Under the pieces are notes generated by a model. That model did not search any database. It was not told the DNA's origin and saw only the letters and a list, made by a program, of their open reading frames with translations. Below are positions 21,895-27,552 of a stretch of 64,000 nucleotides of DNA, in pieces (position 1 is the first letter of the stretch; each line of letters begins with the position of its first letter). The translations under genes and the position numbers were made by a program. Source of the DNA: Serratia plymuthica (GTDB lineage Bacteria; Pseudomonadota; Gammaproteobacteria; Enterobacterales; Enterobacteriaceae); the NCBI RefSeq assembly GCF_018336935.1, contig NZ_CP068771.1, forward strand, positions 3,782,001 to 3,846,000, read 5' to 3'.

Positions 21895-22731
21895 TTATTG
21901 TTCGTTGTGCGCGCGATGACGCGTGTCCCAAAATGCCATCAATAACCCTAACACTAAACCGGCCACGTGTGCCGCGTTAGCGATCGACATTCCTAAAATA
22001 TCGAAATACCCGGCCACCAACCACAGCACTGAAAATACCATCAGGCCGCGCGGCAGCATCAGGCCGCGTTCCGGCGCCCGTTCGCCGCTGAGCCAGCTGT
22101 AGCCCATCAGCGCATAGACCACGCCGGACAGGCCGCCGAACAACGCGCCGCTGAACAGCGACTGCGCCCAACCGCTGAAGAAGGCCGATACTACCGCCAG
22201 CACGAACAGCTTGCCGGTGCCGAGGCGTTTTTCCAGCGGGCCGCCGAGATACCACCACCACAGCAGGTTAAAGGTGATGTGCAGCAGCGAAAAGTGCAAA
22301 AACGCGTGGCTGACCCAGCGCCACAGCTGCGGGTATTGGCTGTTGTCCTGTGGCCAGGAGAGCCAGTACATCAGAGTATCATCGCCCATTACCTGCATCA
22401 GGATATACACTGCAATGCACAGCGCCATCACGCCCAGCGTCAGCGGCCCGGCCTTGCTGCGCAGGGTGTGCAGATAGGAGTAGCCTGGGTAGTGCAGATC
22501 GGCGCCGGTGTTGCCGGTTTCCCAACTGGCGGCCTGATAGCGGCGGTTGAGCGGATCGACCAGGAACTGCTGCAACTCGTGCTGTACCTGCTCCAGATGG
22601 CTGTCGTCAGCCAGCCAGATTTCCGCCGCCTCGCCGGTGTTGTGCACGCTGAGTTCAATGCCCTGCGTCGCCATATAGTCGACAAAGGCCTGAGCCAGGC
22701 GGGGGTTGGATACGGCGATTACTCGAACCAT
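21895..22731 (-). CDS. glpG: Rhomboid intramembrane serine protease GlpG
   Basis: 278 aa. Cytoplasmic N-terminal domain (~90 residues) then six transmembrane segments. Catalytic dyad visible: Ser202 in [13 protein letters not shown] and His255 in [11 protein letters not shown]; the [14 protein letters not shown] segment supplies the conserved His/Asn. Cleaves transmembrane substrates in the inner membrane. glpE, normally just upstream, is displaced by the 23.1-27.2 kb block. Confidence 0.96.
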
Positions 22732-23135
22732 AGATATTCCGTTTCATATACCCGTCGCCTTTCAAGCCGCGGCGTTGTTGGCCGCATGTGCGCACCCCGG
22801 TCACTGCCCTGAGTGCGCTGCGGGGGATTGATACCCTTGTCGCCGCTTGAAATTCATAGGTAAAGATAAGTTGAACCGTCGGTTTGCCGCCGACGGCGTT
22901 GACGGCTGATTATACCGTTGAAATCTTGAACGCAGGCAAAGGATCTGCAAAAAACCAGTAAAAACACCCACTAACGGCCCCGTAGCGGCCAATGAATCCT
23001 GCGGTTTTCCCGCCATGGGCCGGCGAATATTGCAGCGATTTTTGTTTACTTCCGTTTAGCCCTGCAACATATGATCACAGTCACTTTTTAACCACTGGGG
23101 GTCCCTTACTCTCAAAAACAGGTGCTGAGGTGACT
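22732..23135. other. 404-bp gap between glpG and the accessory sugar cluster
   Basis: Divergent region. Contains the ERIC-like element at 22748-22863, so the glpG promoter must lie within or beyond a repeat or depend on upstream transcription. AT-rich sequence at 23040-23090 is the likely promoter area of the HTH-kinase gene. No specific operator recognised. Confidence 0.5.
22748..22863. repeat. ERIC-like element upstream of glpG
   Basis: ATACCCGTCGCCTTTCAAGC on the left, GCTTGAAATTCATAGGTA on the right and a centre with GTTGTTGGCCGCATGTGCGCACCCCGG...GGGGATTG split by the usual turn. ERIC-type landmarks with altered ends; about 116 bp. Confidence 0.6.
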
Positions 23136-24341
23136 ATGTTTCTTGAAGAACGACGCAATAACATTCTGGATTATCTGGATAAATATGAACGCGTTAGCGT
23201 GGCGTACCTGGCCACGTCTTTTGCGGTGACCAAAGAAACCATCCGCAGCGATTTAAACGTGCTGGCGCAGTTGGGCCTGGTGCAGCGCTGCCACGGTGGC
23301 GCGATCGTCATCCGCCGCAGCCTGCAGGCCAAATTGATTACCGAAACCGACGGCACGTTCGAAGTGCTGTTAAGACGCCTGGAAAGCCAGAAAAGAAAGG
23401 CACCGGAGAGAGGAAAAAACATGCGAGGCAAGGTCTGTATTCTGGGGTCATTCAATGTCGATATCGTCGCCAGGGTGGCGCGCTTTCCCAAAGGCGGCGA
23501 ATCGCTGCTGGCGCTCGGCAGTACGCTCGGCCCCGGCGGCAAGGGGGCCAATCAGGCGATGGCCGCCAGCCGGGCCGGCGCTCAGGTGCATTTCGTGTCC
23601 AAAGTCGGCAAGGATCAGTTCAGCCAGTTCGCTTTCGACCATCTCTCTGCGTCGGAAATCCACTCGTTCACCTTATACCAGTCGGAAACCGAGCCGACCG
23701 GCAACGCCATCATTTATGTTTCGCAGCAGGATGGCGAAAACATGATCGCCATTTATTCCGGCGCCAATAAAACCATCACCGACGAAGAAGTGGCTGCAAT
23801 CGCCCCGGAACTGGCCGGCGCAGAGGTTCTGCTGGTGCAGCTGGAGAATAACTTTAACGCCACGCTGAACGCCATGAAGCTGGCCAATGCGTTGGGGATC
23901 CGGGTGATCCTCAATCCTGCGCCTTACTCCGCCGACGCGCTGCAATGTCTGGAATATGTCGATGTGATCACCCCGAATGAAACCGAGGCCTCGCTGCTGT
24001 CCGGCGTGGAGGTGACGGATTTGAACAGCGCCAAAGAGGCGGCGCAGCGTATCGCCGGGCTGGGCGCCCGACGAGTCATCATCACCATGGGCGCGCGCGG
24101 AGCGATGATCCTCGAAGGTTCGCAGTTCCAGCACATTCCCGCTTTCCCGGCGTTGAGCGTCGATACCACCGGTGCGGGGGATGCGTTCAACGGCGCCTTC
24201 GCCGCGGCTATCGCCACCGGGCAAACGATTGCCCAGGCGGCAACCTATGCCGCCGCCTTCGCGTCACTGGCGGTGGAAAGAGAAGGGGCGTCCAACATGC
24301 CGCAACATCAACAGGTGCTGGCTCGTCTGAGCCAGCGCTGA
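23136..24341 (+). CDS. DeoR-type HTH fused to PfkB-family sugar kinase
   Basis: 401 aa from the ATG at 23136 (GAGGTGACT upstream); earlier in-frame codons lack homology. Residues ~1-60 form a DeoR-like winged helix (VSVAYLATSFAVTKETIRSD, then LVQRCHGGAIV). Residues ~95-401 are a ribokinase-like PfkB kinase: GSFNVDIVARV, GPGGKGANQA (substrate/nucleotide site), VQLENN, and the anion-hole motif DTTGAGDAFNGAF with catalytic Asp349. DeoR proteins normally carry a sugar-phosphate sensor domain; here a kinase takes its place, so it may be a sugar kinase that also regulates its own cluster. Substrate unknown; ribose or a keto-deoxy sugar are possible. First gene of a four-gene plus-strand cluster. 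Confidence 0.88.
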   Translation: MFLEERRNNILDYLDKYERVSVAYLATSFAVTKETIRSDLNVLAQLGLVQRCHGGAIVIRRSLQAKLITETDGTFEVLLRRLESQKRKAPERGKNMRGKVCILGSFNVDIVARVARFPKGGESLLALGSTLGPGGKGANQAMAASRAGAQVHFVSKVGKDQFSQFAFDHLSASEIHSFTLYQSETEPTGNAIIYVSQQDGENMIAIYSGANKTITDEEVAAIAPELAGAEVLLVQLENNFNATLNAMKLANALGIRVILNPAPYSADALQCLEYVDVITPNETEASLLSGVEVTDLNSAKEAAQRIAGLGARRVIITMGARGAMILEGSQFQHIPAFPALSVDTTGAGDAFNGAFAAAIATGQTIAQAATYAAAFASLAVEREGASNMPQHQQVLARLSQR

Positions 24342-24396
24342 TCCCTAACCAAACAACACTACTGCCTGCCGCGTCAGCGCGGTGTGAGGAGCAAAA

Positions 24397-25320
24397 ATGA
24401 AGAACATCGAGGGCATTGTGCCGGTCATGCTAACGCCGTTTACCGCTCGCAACGAGATTGACTATCCCGGCCTGGCGCGCCTGATCGACTGGTATTTGCA
24501 GCGCGGCGTCGATGCGTTGTTCGCCGTCTGTCAGTCCAGCGAGATGCAGTTCCTCAGCCTGGCGGAACGGGTCGAGCTGGCGCGTTTCGTGGTGCAGCGG
24601 GTAGACGGCCGGGTGCCGGTTATCGCTTCCGGCCATATCAGCGACGCGCTGGAGCAGCAAATTGAAGAGCTGCAGGCGATGGCGCAAACCGGTATCGACG
24701 CGCTGGTGCTGGTGACCAACCATCTTGACGCGCAACGCCAGGGCAGCGCGGCGTTTTTCGCCACGCTGGACAGCCTGCTGGCGGCGTTGCCGGTTAGCAT
24801 GCCGCTTGGCCTGTACGAATGCCCGGCGCCTTACCGCCGTTTGCTGAGCGATGAAGAGCTGAGCTATTGCGCCAACAGCGGCCGCTTTGTCGTGCTGAAG
24901 GACGTCAGTTGCGATCTGCCGACTGTGACGCGCCGGGTGGCATTGACCGCAGGGACGCCGCTGAACGTCATCAATGCCAACGCCGCTATCGCTTGGCCGG
25001 CGATGCAGGCCGGATCCAAAGGGTTCAGCGGGGTGTTCACCAATTTCCACCCGGAGCTGTACCACTGGTTGTATCACCACGGCGCGCAGCGGCCTGAGCT
25101 GGCGCAGGAACTGGCGACCTTCCTGTCGCTGGCGGCGGTCACGGAGACGCTGGGTTACCCGAAAAACGCCAAAATCTATCACCAGCGTTTGGGCACTTTC
25201 GACAGCGAGCTGTGCCGGGTAAATCAAGACGACGTGCTGGAGAAATTCTGGGGGCTGGGCGTGCTGTTGGATCAAATCCGCAGCGGCACCGGGTTCTACC
25301 GGCAAAAAATTGCCGGTTAA
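24397..25320 (+). CDS. DHDPS/N-acetylneuraminate lyase superfamily aldolase, substrate unknown
   Basis: 307 aa TIM barrel of the class I (Schiff-base) DapA/NanA/KDG-aldolase superfamily. Schiff-base Lys168 (GRFVVLKDVS) and catalytic Tyr140 (LGLYECP) are in place. The carboxylate-binding loop, usually GTTGE or GSTGE, reads CQSSEM (residues 45-50), so the acid group or its binding differs. It is not the biosynthetic DapA. Ribosome site GAGGAG. The cluster, with a kinase, an anomerase-like protein and a transporter, suggests retro-aldol cleavage of an acidic sugar to pyruvate plus an aldehyde; that is inference. Confidence 0.82.
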   Translation: MKNIEGIVPVMLTPFTARNEIDYPGLARLIDWYLQRGVDALFAVCQSSEMQFLSLAERVELARFVVQRVDGRVPVIASGHISDALEQQIEELQAMAQTGIDALVLVTNHLDAQRQGSAAFFATLDSLLAALPVSMPLGLYECPAPYRRLLSDEELSYCANSGRFVVLKDVSCDLPTVTRRVALTAGTPLNVINANAAIAWPAMQAGSKGFSGVFTNFHPELYHWLYHHGAQRPELAQELATFLSLAAVTETLGYPKNAKIYHQRLGTFDSELCRVNQDDVLEKFWGLGVLLDQIRSGTGFYRQKIAG

Positions 25321-25416
25321 GGCCGGGCGGGAAGATGGCGACATCCTCCCGCCATGCAACAACACCGCTGTACCTACTACACCCGCTAAAACTATCACTA
25401 CACGGGGAACACCATC

Positions 25417-25899
25417 ATGATGCTTTGCGATTTGCAGGACTGGGCGCGGGAAAAACACGCGTTTCATCCGATTATCCACCAGGCTATCGCGTTTATCGAA
25501 CGCACCGACTTTGCCGCGCTGCAACCCGGTAAAATCGACATTATTCCCGGCAAGATGTTTTGCCTGCTGCAGGAAATGAGCACCGTGCCGGCGCCGCAAA
25601 TGCGCCCTGAGTCGCACTTTGACTACGTTGACGTGCAGTATCTGTTGCAGGGGGAAGAAACCATCGGCGTGGCGCGCCGCCGGGGCGATGAACCCGTGGC
25701 GGAAGAGCGGCGCCACCACGACATCGTGTTTTACCAACGGGTGCAAAATGAAATGGCGGTCCCGCTGCTGCCCGGCACCTTTGCGGTATTTTTCCCGCAC
25801 GATCTGCATCGCCCTTGCTGCCAAACCCACGGCGAGTCCTTTATCCGCAAAGCCGTGATTAAAATTCACCTCAGTCTGTTTACGGAGCCGCAATCATGA
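25417..25899 (+). CDS. YhcH/YjgK/YiaL (DUF386) family protein, NanQ-like
   Basis: 160 aa single cupin-like beta-barrel. Family motifs: the HFDYVDVQYLLQGEE strand with a metal-ligand His near residue 68, and PGTFAVFFPHDLHRPCC near the end. E. coli NanQ (YhcH) of this family speeds anomer interconversion of N-acetylneuraminate; other members sit in sugar-acid operons (yiaL, yjgK). Here it lies between the lyase and the transporter; its stop overlaps the transporter start (ATGA at 25896). The start may be either of two adjacent ATG codons (25417 or 25420). Confidence 0.85.
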   Translation: MMLCDLQDWAREKHAFHPIIHQAIAFIERTDFAALQPGKIDIIPGKMFCLLQEMSTVPAPQMRPESHFDYVDVQYLLQGEETIGVARRRGDEPVAEERRHHDIVFYQRVQNEMAVPLLPGTFAVFFPHDLHRPCCQTHGESFIRKAVIKIHLSLFTEPQS

Positions 25900-27191
25900 A
25901 AGAGGCGACTTCTGCGTTGCATGCATCGGCCGCCGCACCGGCGGCACCGATCTCCCGTTTGCGCTGGGGCATTATCCTGATCCTGTTGATTGCCGCGGTG
26001 GTGAATTATCTCGATCGCGCCAACCTGAGCATCGCCAATACCACTATCGCCCGGGAGTTTGGCTTTTCCTCTACCGAAATGGGCCTGCTGCTGTCGGCGT
26101 TTTTGTGGCCTTACGCGCTCGCCAACCTGCCCGCCGGCTGGCTGGTGGACAAACTGGGGCCGAAGAAAATGTTTTCCTGGGCGCTGGGATTGTGGTCGAC
26201 ATTTACCGTGATGGCCGCGTTCGTCAACGGCTACTCGATGTTCTATGGCCTGCGGATGCTGCTGGGCGTATCGGAATCCCCGTTTTTCACCTCGGGGATC
26301 AAGATCACCCATCGCTGGTTCTCGGAGAAAGAGCGTGGCCTGCCTACTTCGATCATCAACACCGGTTCGCAGATTGCCAACGCCATCGCTCCGCCGATCC
26401 TCACCGTGCTGCTGCTGACGCTCGGCTGGCGCGGCATGTTTATCGCCATTGGTCTGGCGGGCATTCCGCTGATGCTGGCCTGGCTGAAGTTTTACCGTGA
26501 TCCGACGGCACGGGAAGAGGCGATGATCCACGCCGAAAAACGCGCGGCGGCAAAAGCCGTCAGCCAGGAGCAGGGCGGGAGCTGGGGTTCGCTGTTCCGC
26601 CATAAAACCACCTGGTTCATGATTTTGGGCAACTTTTCCATCATGTTCACCATCTGGGTTTACCTGACCTGGCTGCCGAGCTATCTGGAGAATTCGCTGG
26701 GCTTTAGCCTGAAGCAGACCGGTTGGATCGCGTCGATCCCGTTCTTTGCCGGCATTCTGGGGGTATTGTGCGGCGGGGCGATTTCCGATCGTTTGATCCG
26801 CCGCGGGGTGAAAGCGATCACCGCTCGCAAAATCCCGATCGTTTGCGGTGCCGCGCTGGCGGCCTGCTGCGTGGCGCCGATCGCCTTTGTCGACAGTACG
26901 CCGCTGTGCATTTTATTGCTGTCGCTGGGGTATTTCTTCTCGCAGCTGCCTTCCGGCGTGATCTGGACGCTGGCGACGGATATCGCACCGAAACAGCAGG
27001 TGGCTTCGCTGGGGGCGATCCAGAACTTTGGCGGTTTCCTCGGTGCGGCGATGGCGCCGATTGTCACCGGGGTGATCCTCGATCTGACCGGGCAGTTCAC
27101 CAACGTATTCTTGCTTGGCGCGGGTTTGCTGATGCTGGGGGCCTTGAGCTACGGTCTGTTTGTCAAACGGCCGATGGTGGCGGCGGAGTAG
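25896..27191 (+). CDS. MFS transporter of the anion:cation symporter (ACS) family
   Basis: 431 aa with 12 predicted membrane segments. Motifs: NYLDRANLSIANTTI in the first segment (the D-R-x-N-L signature of ACS hexuronate/glucarate/phthalate carriers), GWLVDKLGPKKMF in the first cytoplasmic loop, GVSESPFFTSG, and GAIQNFGGFLGAAMAPIVTG in the second half. ACS members carry organic anions with H+, in keeping with an acidic sugar substrate. Coupled to the DUF386 gene by a 4-bp overlap. Ends at a terminator shared with glpE. Confidence 0.88.
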   Translation: MKEATSALHASAAAPAAPISRLRWGIILILLIAAVVNYLDRANLSIANTTIAREFGFSSTEMGLLLSAFLWPYALANLPAGWLVDKLGPKKMFSWALGLWSTFTVMAAFVNGYSMFYGLRMLLGVSESPFFTSGIKITHRWFSEKERGLPTSIINTGSQIANAIAPPILTVLLLTLGWRGMFIAIGLAGIPLMLAWLKFYRDPTAREEAMIHAEKRAAAKAVSQEQGGSWGSLFRHKTTWFMILGNFSIMFTIWVYLTWLPSYLENSLGFSLKQTGWIASIPFFAGILGVLCGGAISDRLIRRGVKAITARKIPIVCGAALAACCVAPIAFVDSTPLCILLLSLGYFFSQLPSGVIWTLATDIAPKQQVASLGAIQNFGGFLGAAMAPIVTGVILDLTGQFTNVFLLGAGLLMLGALSYGLFVKRPMVAAE

Positions 27192-27200
27192 CAAAGGAAG

Positions 27201-27228
27201 AGGGCGCAGGATGCGCCCTGATTTTTTA
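27201..27228. terminator. Terminator between the transporter gene and glpE
   Basis: Stem AGGGCGCA (27201-27208) / TGCGCCCT (27212-27219) with a T6 run on the plus strand. It slightly overlaps the glpE stop codon, so it serves mainly the plus-strand cluster. Confidence 0.8.
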
Positions 27229-27552
27229 CGCTGAAGTTTCAACGTCCTGCGGGTACTGACGTGCCCAGGCTTCAAAGCCGCCATCAATGCTGTACACCGC
27301 ATCAAACCCCTGATTCAGCAGGTATTGTGCTGCACTGCGGCTGCTGTTGCCGTGGTAGCACATCACCATCACCGGCCGGTCAAAATCGTTGTGCTGCATG
27401 AATGCTTGCAGGCTGGCGTTGGTGAGGTGAAATGCGCCCGGCGTGTGCCCGGCTTCAAAACTCTGCGGATCGCGGATGTCGACCAGAGCGGCACTGCCTT
27501 CTTTCCAGCGCGCATAGGCCTGTTCAACGTTGATCGCTTCAAACTGTTCCAT
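27226..27552 (-). CDS. glpE: Thiosulfate sulfurtransferase GlpE (single-domain rhodanese)
   Basis: 108 aa from the ATG at 27552 ([13 protein letters not shown]); the longer open frame has no homology upstream. Rhodanese active-site loop CYHGNSSR (Cys ~65) and [12 protein letters not shown]. Transfers sulfane sulfur from thiosulfate to thiol or cyanide acceptors. In E. coli it begins glpEGR; here 4.5 kb of opposite-strand genes lie between it and glpG, so it is likely transcribed alone. Confidence 0.94.

Follow-up and report, generated by a model that had tools for sequence, protein, structure and literature searches.

A conserved HTH-kinase/lyase operon between glpG and glpE of Serratia plymuthica and its possible role in catabolism of a C8 ulosonic acid

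Genes between glpG and glpE

The 64,000-nucleotide stretch of Serratia plymuthica DNA analysed here (NZ_CP068771.1, positions 3,782,001 to 3,846,000; hereafter the window) carries at 23136-27191 four plus-strand genes set between glpG and glpE. They encode a kinase with a fused DeoR-type helix-turn-helix (HTH) domain, a lyase of the dihydrodipicolinate synthase/N-acetylneuraminate lyase (DHDPS/NAL) superfamily, a DUF386 protein and an ACS-type carrier of the major facilitator superfamily (MFS). The cluster is a real, conserved catabolic operon that is apparently uncharacterised. Its layout had been proposed in a first-pass annotation made from the DNA letters alone, namely four plus-strand genes, two of them overlapping, which split glpE from glpG and end at a terminator. 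Coordinates, families and the hairpin at 27201-27219 were all verified, and the open reading frames (ORFs) of the DUF386 protein and the carrier share 4 bases (25896-25899). The features are as follows.

23039..23058, plus strand: conserved T-rich element TTTTTGTTTACTTCCGTTTA, candidate operator for the HTH domain of the kinase (de novo motif)
23070..23085, plus strand: CRP-like site TATGA-N6-TCACT (fixed spacing from the T-rich element)
23106..23111, plus strand: putative -10 element TTACTC (read from the sequence; conserved block in the information profile)
23136..24341, plus strand: fusion of a DeoR-type HTH domain and a ribokinase-type PfkB kinase (401 aa; PF08220 and PF00294)
24397..25320, plus strand: Schiff-base-type lyase of the DHDPS/NAL superfamily, clade A (307 aa; PF00701, predicted fold, tree)
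25417..25899, plus strand: DUF386 (YhcH/NanQ-like) protein, proposed ulosonate anomerase (160 aa; PF04074, 127.5 bits)
25896..27191, plus strand: ACS-type MFS carrier (431 aa; MFS_1; top-scoring NCBIfam model TIGR00893, cut-off not reached)
27201..27219, plus strand: predicted intrinsic terminator stem-loop between the convergent mfs and glpE genes (8-pair stem, then GATTTTTT)
21895-22731, minus strand: glpG (above the NCBIfam equivalog cut-off)
27226-27552, minus strand: glpE (above the NCBIfam equivalog cut-off)

The kinase is composed of the HTH domain PF08220 (residues 6-60) and the PfkB domain PF00294 (residues 99-388). It resembles RbsK in scoring above the ribokinase equivalog TIGR02152 (305.8, cut-off 299.65) and in possessing all seven ribose contacts, N14, D16, G42, K43, N46, E143 and D255. 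These contacts are named in PMC9604405. In contrast to RbsK, the kinase is fused to a DeoR-type HTH domain, falls below the RbsK equivalog PRK11142 (274.1 versus 341) and coexists with a separate RbsK elsewhere in the genome (368.8 bits). In an alignment of 57 family rows, which are not mutually independent, each contact position is conserved in 56 or 57 rows; the deviations are a gap and a single His in place of Asn14. The catalytic Asp255 is conserved in all 57.

The lyase is a clear member of its superfamily (PF00701, 87.5 bits, gathering threshold 22.1), with the Schiff-base lysine (K165 equivalent) and the catalytic tyrosine (Y137 equivalent) conserved. It remains well below the cut-offs of the NAL equivalogs NF003164 (39.2 versus 281) and TIGR00683 (33.3 versus 382), the dapA equivalog (81.8 versus 206.15) and the KdgD equivalog (44.6 versus 373.95). 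At T167, D191, E192, S208 and Y110, which we take to be the sugar-binding positions of NAL, it displays Val, Ala, Ala, Val and Leu, so that the NAL sugar residues are not conserved; this pocket comparison was read without the rows for the genome's own dapA and for one surveyed locus, L126. Since a sequence search of the PDB yielded no close relative (best match 69 bits), a predicted fold was used, which has a predicted local distance difference test (pLDDT) score of 94.5 and resembles structures of NAL, DHDPS and aldolases to a similar degree.

The third protein belongs to the DUF386 family and lies below the NanQ equivalog NF040884 (106.8 versus 160). The carrier scores 312.5 on the D-galactonate transporter model TIGR00893 (cut-off 395), and its best sequence relative in the PDB is a D-galactonate transporter (211.9 bits). 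The suggested acid-sugar pathway is thus supported, with a carrier of carboxylate type, a DUF386 protein, a lyase of Schiff-base type and a kinase.

Behind the carrier gene, the stem at 27201-27219 is also called on the minus strand. Six terminator-like sites in the region compare with a shuffle mean of 6.3, and the call thus rests on site quality rather than on an excess. Within the genus, glpE is present in 29 of 30 Serratia genomes (E 1e-20) and the lyase in 3 of 30 (E 1e-35). Among the 29 glpE stretches, glpG lies 51-178 bp away in 25 (empty site), an insert marked by the cluster's MFS gene is found in 3, and one has neither glpG nor this MFS gene within the fetched stretch.

Conservation of the operon and its upstream region

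Scanning 84,980 species genomes by sequence pattern, an approach that picks up close relatives only, yielded 67 loci (loci are given by L-numbers where needed). Core counts refer to the 51 loci whose lyase reaches 65% identity in tblastn and exclude the other 16. The kinase adjoins the lyase at 50 of these 51 loci, the exception (L082) lying at a contig edge. The DUF386 gene is found at 27, all of which also have the kinase and the ACS-type MFS carrier and hence the complete four-gene set. The carrier is of the ACS-type MFS at 43 loci, TctCBA at 6 (in Brenneria and Pectobacterium) and another MFS protein together with a 2-hydroxyacid dehydrogenase at 2. Thus the same four-gene set recurs, and the genes cannot be said to occur together only rarely. 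The earlier picture of a four-gene cluster inside the glp region stands in part: in Enterobacterales kinase and lyase form the core, while the DUF386 gene may be absent and carriers of different types replace one another. The glp location, true for the window, is one of several sites (glpE near 18 and glpG near 16 of the 51 loci).

The closest named loci belong to S. plymuthica (lyase 99% identical) and S. inhibens (98%), and the lyase gene occurs in many plant-associated Enterobacterales. Among 398 evenly drawn genomes of Pseudomonadota, 8 match at E <=1e-35, including the window's own genome and one genome with a lyase of group B (see below). In E. coli a megablast search with the whole cluster gave no match, and only a more sensitive search with the lyase gene detected relatives, which are present in 574 of the 5426 complete genomes, at 66.9% DNA identity among the matches listed. 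The gene order in two E. coli records is araC, kinase, lyase, tct genes and a yabI/DedA gene; araC adjoins yabI directly in K-12. At L098:7743-12915 the E. coli cluster, with TctCBA and without a CRP-like site, sits between araC and yabI.

Some records call for comment. L063 bears the name Serratia marcescens and is likely mislabelled: relative to the window its genes are no closer than those of Symbiopectobacterium L064 (about 61-62% for glpG), and it matches L048 in the upstream region. Two PLSDB 'plasmid' records, L107 (CP054241.1; polB-araBADC region) and L144 (NZ_OL790811.1; a 4.08 Mb Proteus record), resemble chromosome pieces. In L073 (8990-10067), whose record name denotes an endosymbiont, the MFS gene is broken into three pieces and thus decaying.

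Upstream of the kinase gene, 54 regions were compared, all of them related by descent. Once regions with a positional identity of 75% or more had been dropped, 44 remained, of which 35 contain the top de novo 10-mer (one mismatch), compared with 4 of 44 after shuffling. The consensus TTTTTGTTTRCTTCCGTTTT, which was derived from the same regions it was scored on, reaches at least 15 of 20 positions in 52 of the 54 regions and in 15 of 1080 mononucleotide shuffles (shuffle maximum 16). The two regions lacking the T-rich element are L061, where the kinase ORF has no HTH domain, and L073, where the extracted stretch is coding. At an identical offset from this element, GA-N6-TCA is found in 50 of the 52 regions (strict TGA-N6-TCA in 29), the two without it being the E. 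coli locus, twice. We take this to be a CRP site on the basis of the CRP consensus.

In the window, the putative -10 element would give the centre of the CRP-like site a class II position near -41; a search for sigma-70 consensus promoters found none at 23106-23111. T-rich sites are known for DeoR-type regulators. The arrangement can be read as an HTH-kinase that controls its own operon, under catabolite control. The exact 19-mer of the T-rich element occurs once in the window's genome, which is also the only one of 394 genomes from the order to contain it. When three mismatches were allowed, 3 extra matches appeared in the own genome compared with 8 for the reversed pattern, and no further regulon site is claimed.

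In a lyase tree of 36 rows, 19 window-type lyases (clade A) lie on one side of a branch with support of 100/99. Their current annotation is only 'dihydrodipicolinate synthase family protein'. Clade A, ten rows of a second type (group B) and two unassigned rows, 31 in total, split from five references at 100/100, with a long-branch warning. The references are three E. coli proteins (NanA, YagE and DapA) and two from the window's own genome, namely a second DapA and a paralogue beside hydroxyproline-type genes. Group B is not one clade, since two changes are needed and a single change was found in 0% of 200 bootstrap trees. Five enterobacterial group B lyases do form a clade (100/99), placed next to clade A at only 93/87. 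Conclusions are drawn only on the unity of clade A and on this five-row part of group B.

Group B lyases often stand beside a FucI/AraA-fold isomerase-like protein and a kinase of the D-ribulokinase family (TIGR01315). They belong to a second widespread cluster (L104:5698-12429, also L108, L109, L110, L111, L113 and L144), which comprises an FGGY kinase, the FucI-fold isomerase-like protein, the lyase and a TctCBA or shikimate-type carrier. The isomerase-like protein is annotated as 'signal transduction protein'; it has no sequence match in the PDB at E 0.1, a predicted fold being used instead, and was not found in the window's genome in a search run without a positive control. Most second clusters (none seen in L111) contain a sialidase-like protein with weak PDB matches to sialidases (best 1.2e-7), which may be a glycosidase or a NanM-like anomerase. 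At L093:3-8975 of Pseudovibrio, a clade A lyase with genes of a tripartite ATP-independent periplasmic (TRAP) carrier lies near an opposite-strand group B lyase, isomerase-like gene and FGGY kinase.

Proposed substrate and pathway

Two related lyase groups are each accompanied by enzymes that handle pentoses, and these enzymes differ between the groups; cleavage therefore probably releases an aldopentose. Together with the pyruvate expected from the lyase fold, an aldopentose points to a C8 3-deoxy-2-ulosonate as substrate. The common natural acid of this kind is 3-deoxy-D-manno-oct-2-ulosonate (Kdo). The preferred reading is therefore a catabolic operon for a C8 3-deoxy-2-ulosonic acid, most likely Kdo, to which we assign a probability of roughly 0.4. 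The more general statement, that an imported ulosonate is cleaved to pyruvate and a pentose, is considered probable. We take Kdo aldolase (EC 4.1.2.23), the reaction of which is the same as that proposed for the lyase, to be an activity without an assigned gene.

NAL-fold enzymes act on Kdo (PMC4016182, PMC13220900), and Kdo occurs in Gram-negative lipopolysaccharide and in plant cell walls (PMC13220900, PMC6353982). Moreover, the DUF386 protein YhcH was reported to speed cleavage of the cyclic acids N-acetylneuraminic acid (Neu5Ac) and 2-keto-3-deoxynonulosonic acid (KDN), but not of 2-keto-3-deoxyxylonate (KDX), which is largely open (PMC8141875). The presence of a DUF386 protein thus suits an acid of eight or nine carbons better than one of five or six.

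From gene content and sequence we infer the substrate, all reactions, the binding to DNA and in which direction regulation acts. The acid would be imported by the ACS-type MFS carrier, and its pyranose ring would be opened by the DUF386 protein, where present. The Schiff-base-type lyase would then cut the acid to pyruvate and an aldopentose, D-arabinose in the case of Kdo, which the ribokinase-type domain would phosphorylate at O5 to yield, for Kdo, D-arabinose 5-phosphate. A housekeeping KdsD/GutQ isomerase could convert the latter to ribulose 5-phosphate; the window's genome has two matches above cut-off to TIGR00393 (KpsF/KdsD-type isomerase). Expression would be set by binding of the kinase's own HTH domain to the T-rich upstream element and jointly by CRP.

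The kinase looks built for a pentose and is therefore more likely to act on the cleavage product than on the substrate, which narrows the initial suggestion that either could be phosphorylated. The same feature leads away from C6 acids resembling 2-keto-3-deoxygluconate (KDG) and from sialic acids; of the ulosonic or aldonic acids initially considered, a C8 ulosonate is favoured.

A further, tentative possibility is that the two lyase groups mark two dedicated Kdo-catabolic operons. In the window type, the HTH-fused ribokinase paralogue would generate D-arabinose 5-phosphate, to be recycled via the envelope enzyme KdsD. In group B, the FucI-fold isomerase and the D-ribulokinase would lead to D-ribulose 5-phosphate, often beside a sialidase-fold protein. 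Such routes would resemble those described for D-arabinose and D-ribulose with DarK and RblK, where a pentose enters the pentose phosphate pathway (PMC12307932), the group B cluster sharing with them a TIGR01315 kinase next to a FucI-fold isomerase-like protein. Rbl, as far as described in the same source, imports the free sugar, whereas the pentose would here be released from an acid.

If the proposal holds, it would name the lyase clade, give a function to a gene present in the E. coli genomes counted above and in many plant-associated Enterobacterales, and reveal a catabolic kinase that carries a regulator-like domain of its own, together with a predicted DNA site. The two-operon extension, if true, would supply genes for Kdo breakdown in plant-associated bacteria and, with the first kind of lyase, in about one in ten complete E. 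coli genomes. The prediction of pyruvate plus a pentose holds as a testable one even if the C8 acid is not Kdo.

Several observations weigh against Kdo. The residues Ala98, Ile100 and Ile110, which have been tied to the preference for ribose over arabinose, form a lid retained in 56 of the 57 kinase rows, the remaining one having a gap; D-arabinose is a very poor substrate of wild-type E. coli ribokinase, and A98G raises its arabinose activity (PMC9604405). A lid opened at Ala98, as looked for in a D-arabinose kinase, was thus not found, and the conserved ribose-type lid is a real difficulty for D-arabinose as cleavage product, although D-arabinose may be accepted by another route. The pairing of kinase and lyase is loose outside Enterobacterales: a ribokinase-type gene lies near only 2 of the 16 loci below 65% identity and TRAP genes at 8, their neighbours being detected by tblastn with single probes. 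No kinase is listed beside the lyase in Agrobacterium fabrum and Rhizobium sp. NXC14, nor does one stand beside the Peteryoungia relative, and the Agrobacterium fabrum and Rhizobium relatives adjoin sugar-type ATP-binding cassette (ABC) genes, not acid carriers. NanA acting on Kdo needs no mutarotase (PMC13220900), and DUF386 is absent at 24 of the 51 close loci. The lyases of groups A and B differ at NAL pocket positions 167, 191 and 192, and since group B is moreover not one clade, the two groups need not share a substrate. For the isomerase-like protein, the fold match depends on a model with a pLDDT of 80.4, its TM-scores over the whole chain are no higher than 0.36-0.46, and its Pfam match is below threshold. 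In addition, the operon has no glycosidase gene, and some relatives possess a 2-hydroxyacid or shikimate-type dehydrogenase that would be superfluous to the proposed pathway. Growth or enzyme data for the operon were not found, and neither this operon nor any catabolic operon for Kdo was found in the titles and abstract openings of the open-access literature searched, a search that most subscription papers lie outside.

Alternative explanations and further observations

In another explanation with the same chemistry, a different C8 3-deoxy-ulosonate, or a pentose acid linked to pyruvate or lactate, yields D-ribose for a true ribokinase, a 2-hydroxyacid dehydrogenase first making the 2-keto acid in some lineages. 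The ribose contacts, Ala98 and Ile110 are conserved both in window-type kinases and in seven ribokinase rows of unlinked lineages, as is Ile100, except for Val in Azospirillum. In Burkholderia, where rbsK adjoins an MFS gene and the lyase gene, the partner kinase reaches 351.7 on the ribokinase model, and 2-hydroxyacid dehydrogenases occur at L061, L070, L075, L089, L102 and L132. Burkholderia is, however, the only ribokinase-type partner outside the window type to exceed the cut-off of 299.65: the E. coli kinase falls narrowly below it (298.8), followed by those of L132 (292.5), Marinomonas (285.9), Sinorhizobium (240.4) and Azospirillum (237.6), and one Agrobacterium has such a partner by annotation only. 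The branching order of these lineages was not resolved in a kinase tree. The separate RbsK of the window's genome also counts against this explanation. Furthermore, we know of no common natural acid with a configuration that would yield ribose, and FucI/AraA-type isomerases are, to our knowledge, not ribose enzymes. Release of D-ribose is thus unlikely.

A C6 (or C5) 2-keto-3-deoxy-aldonate would be cleaved to pyruvate plus either glyceraldehyde or glycolaldehyde, and the kinase would phosphorylate the acid itself or the aldehyde released. For this KDG-like substrate the probability is lower again: KDG-kinase models give the window kinase 43-64 bits against cut-offs of 400-440, while it passes the ribokinase model, and the pentose-type pocket is conserved. 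Moreover, KDG and KDX are largely open-chain (PMC13220900), and an anomerase would be idle.

The HTH-kinase might also be mainly a sugar-sensing regulator, the lyase product being handled elsewhere, in which case kinase specificity would say little about the substrate. The fused DNA-binding domain, the dedicated operator-like element and the joint lack of HTH domain and T-rich element in L061 are consistent with such a role. Conservation of the catalytic Asp255 and of the ribose contacts, together with the HTH-free ribokinases that accompany the lyase in other lineages, argues for catalysis and makes a mainly regulatory kinase improbable.

The cluster shares with the E. coli nan operon (nanATEK-nanQ) the combination of a NAL-fold lyase, a DUF386 protein, an MFS carrier and a sugar kinase. 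In contrast to that operon, its lyase, DUF386 protein and carrier all lie under the nan model cut-offs, and an HTH-fused ribokinase-type PfkB kinase replaces the ROK kinase NanK. NanE, which the first-pass annotation had noted as missing from the cluster, has no match to PF04131 anywhere in the window's genome (controls matched in 8 of 14 genomes, 6 above cut-off); the lack of a NanK-type ROK kinase was seen for the cluster only. The cluster varies the nan-type plan without belonging to the nan system. That it is a divergent nan operon for Neu5Ac or KDN is very improbable, the predicted NAL fold, the NanQ family member and the MFS carrier being outweighed by the scores on the NAL and NanQ models, the non-conserved residues at the presumed NAL sugar positions, the missing NanE and the lack of a NAL above cut-off among the three of four genomic DHDPS-family members scored with NCBIfam.

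Among the relatives, a D-2-hydroxyacid dehydrogenase gene adjoins the lyase gene at L061:10231-11295, L070:10232-11296, L075:6994-7995 and L102:7979-8932. The enzyme may supply the 2-keto substrate; alternatively, it may reduce hydroxypyruvate released from an analogue with a 3-hydroxyl group, such as D-glycero-D-talo-oct-2-ulosonate (Ko). Rhizobial relatives at L138:7321-9918, L103:5264-10894 and L139:4444-10960 lie beside genes for shikimate-dehydrogenase-like proteins and sugar isomerases/epimerases, a hint that their substrate has diverged. A glycoside hydrolase of family GH78 beside a 37%-identical lyase in Haladaptatus was not used as evidence, being one distant case. The only other DUF386 match in the window's genome (L134:6455-7123) adjoins a gene with weak similarity to FGGY kinases, and these surroundings read as a yia-type rather than a nan operon. 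Elsewhere in the window, the small RNA RyhB is encoded at 2640-2705 (87.1 bits).

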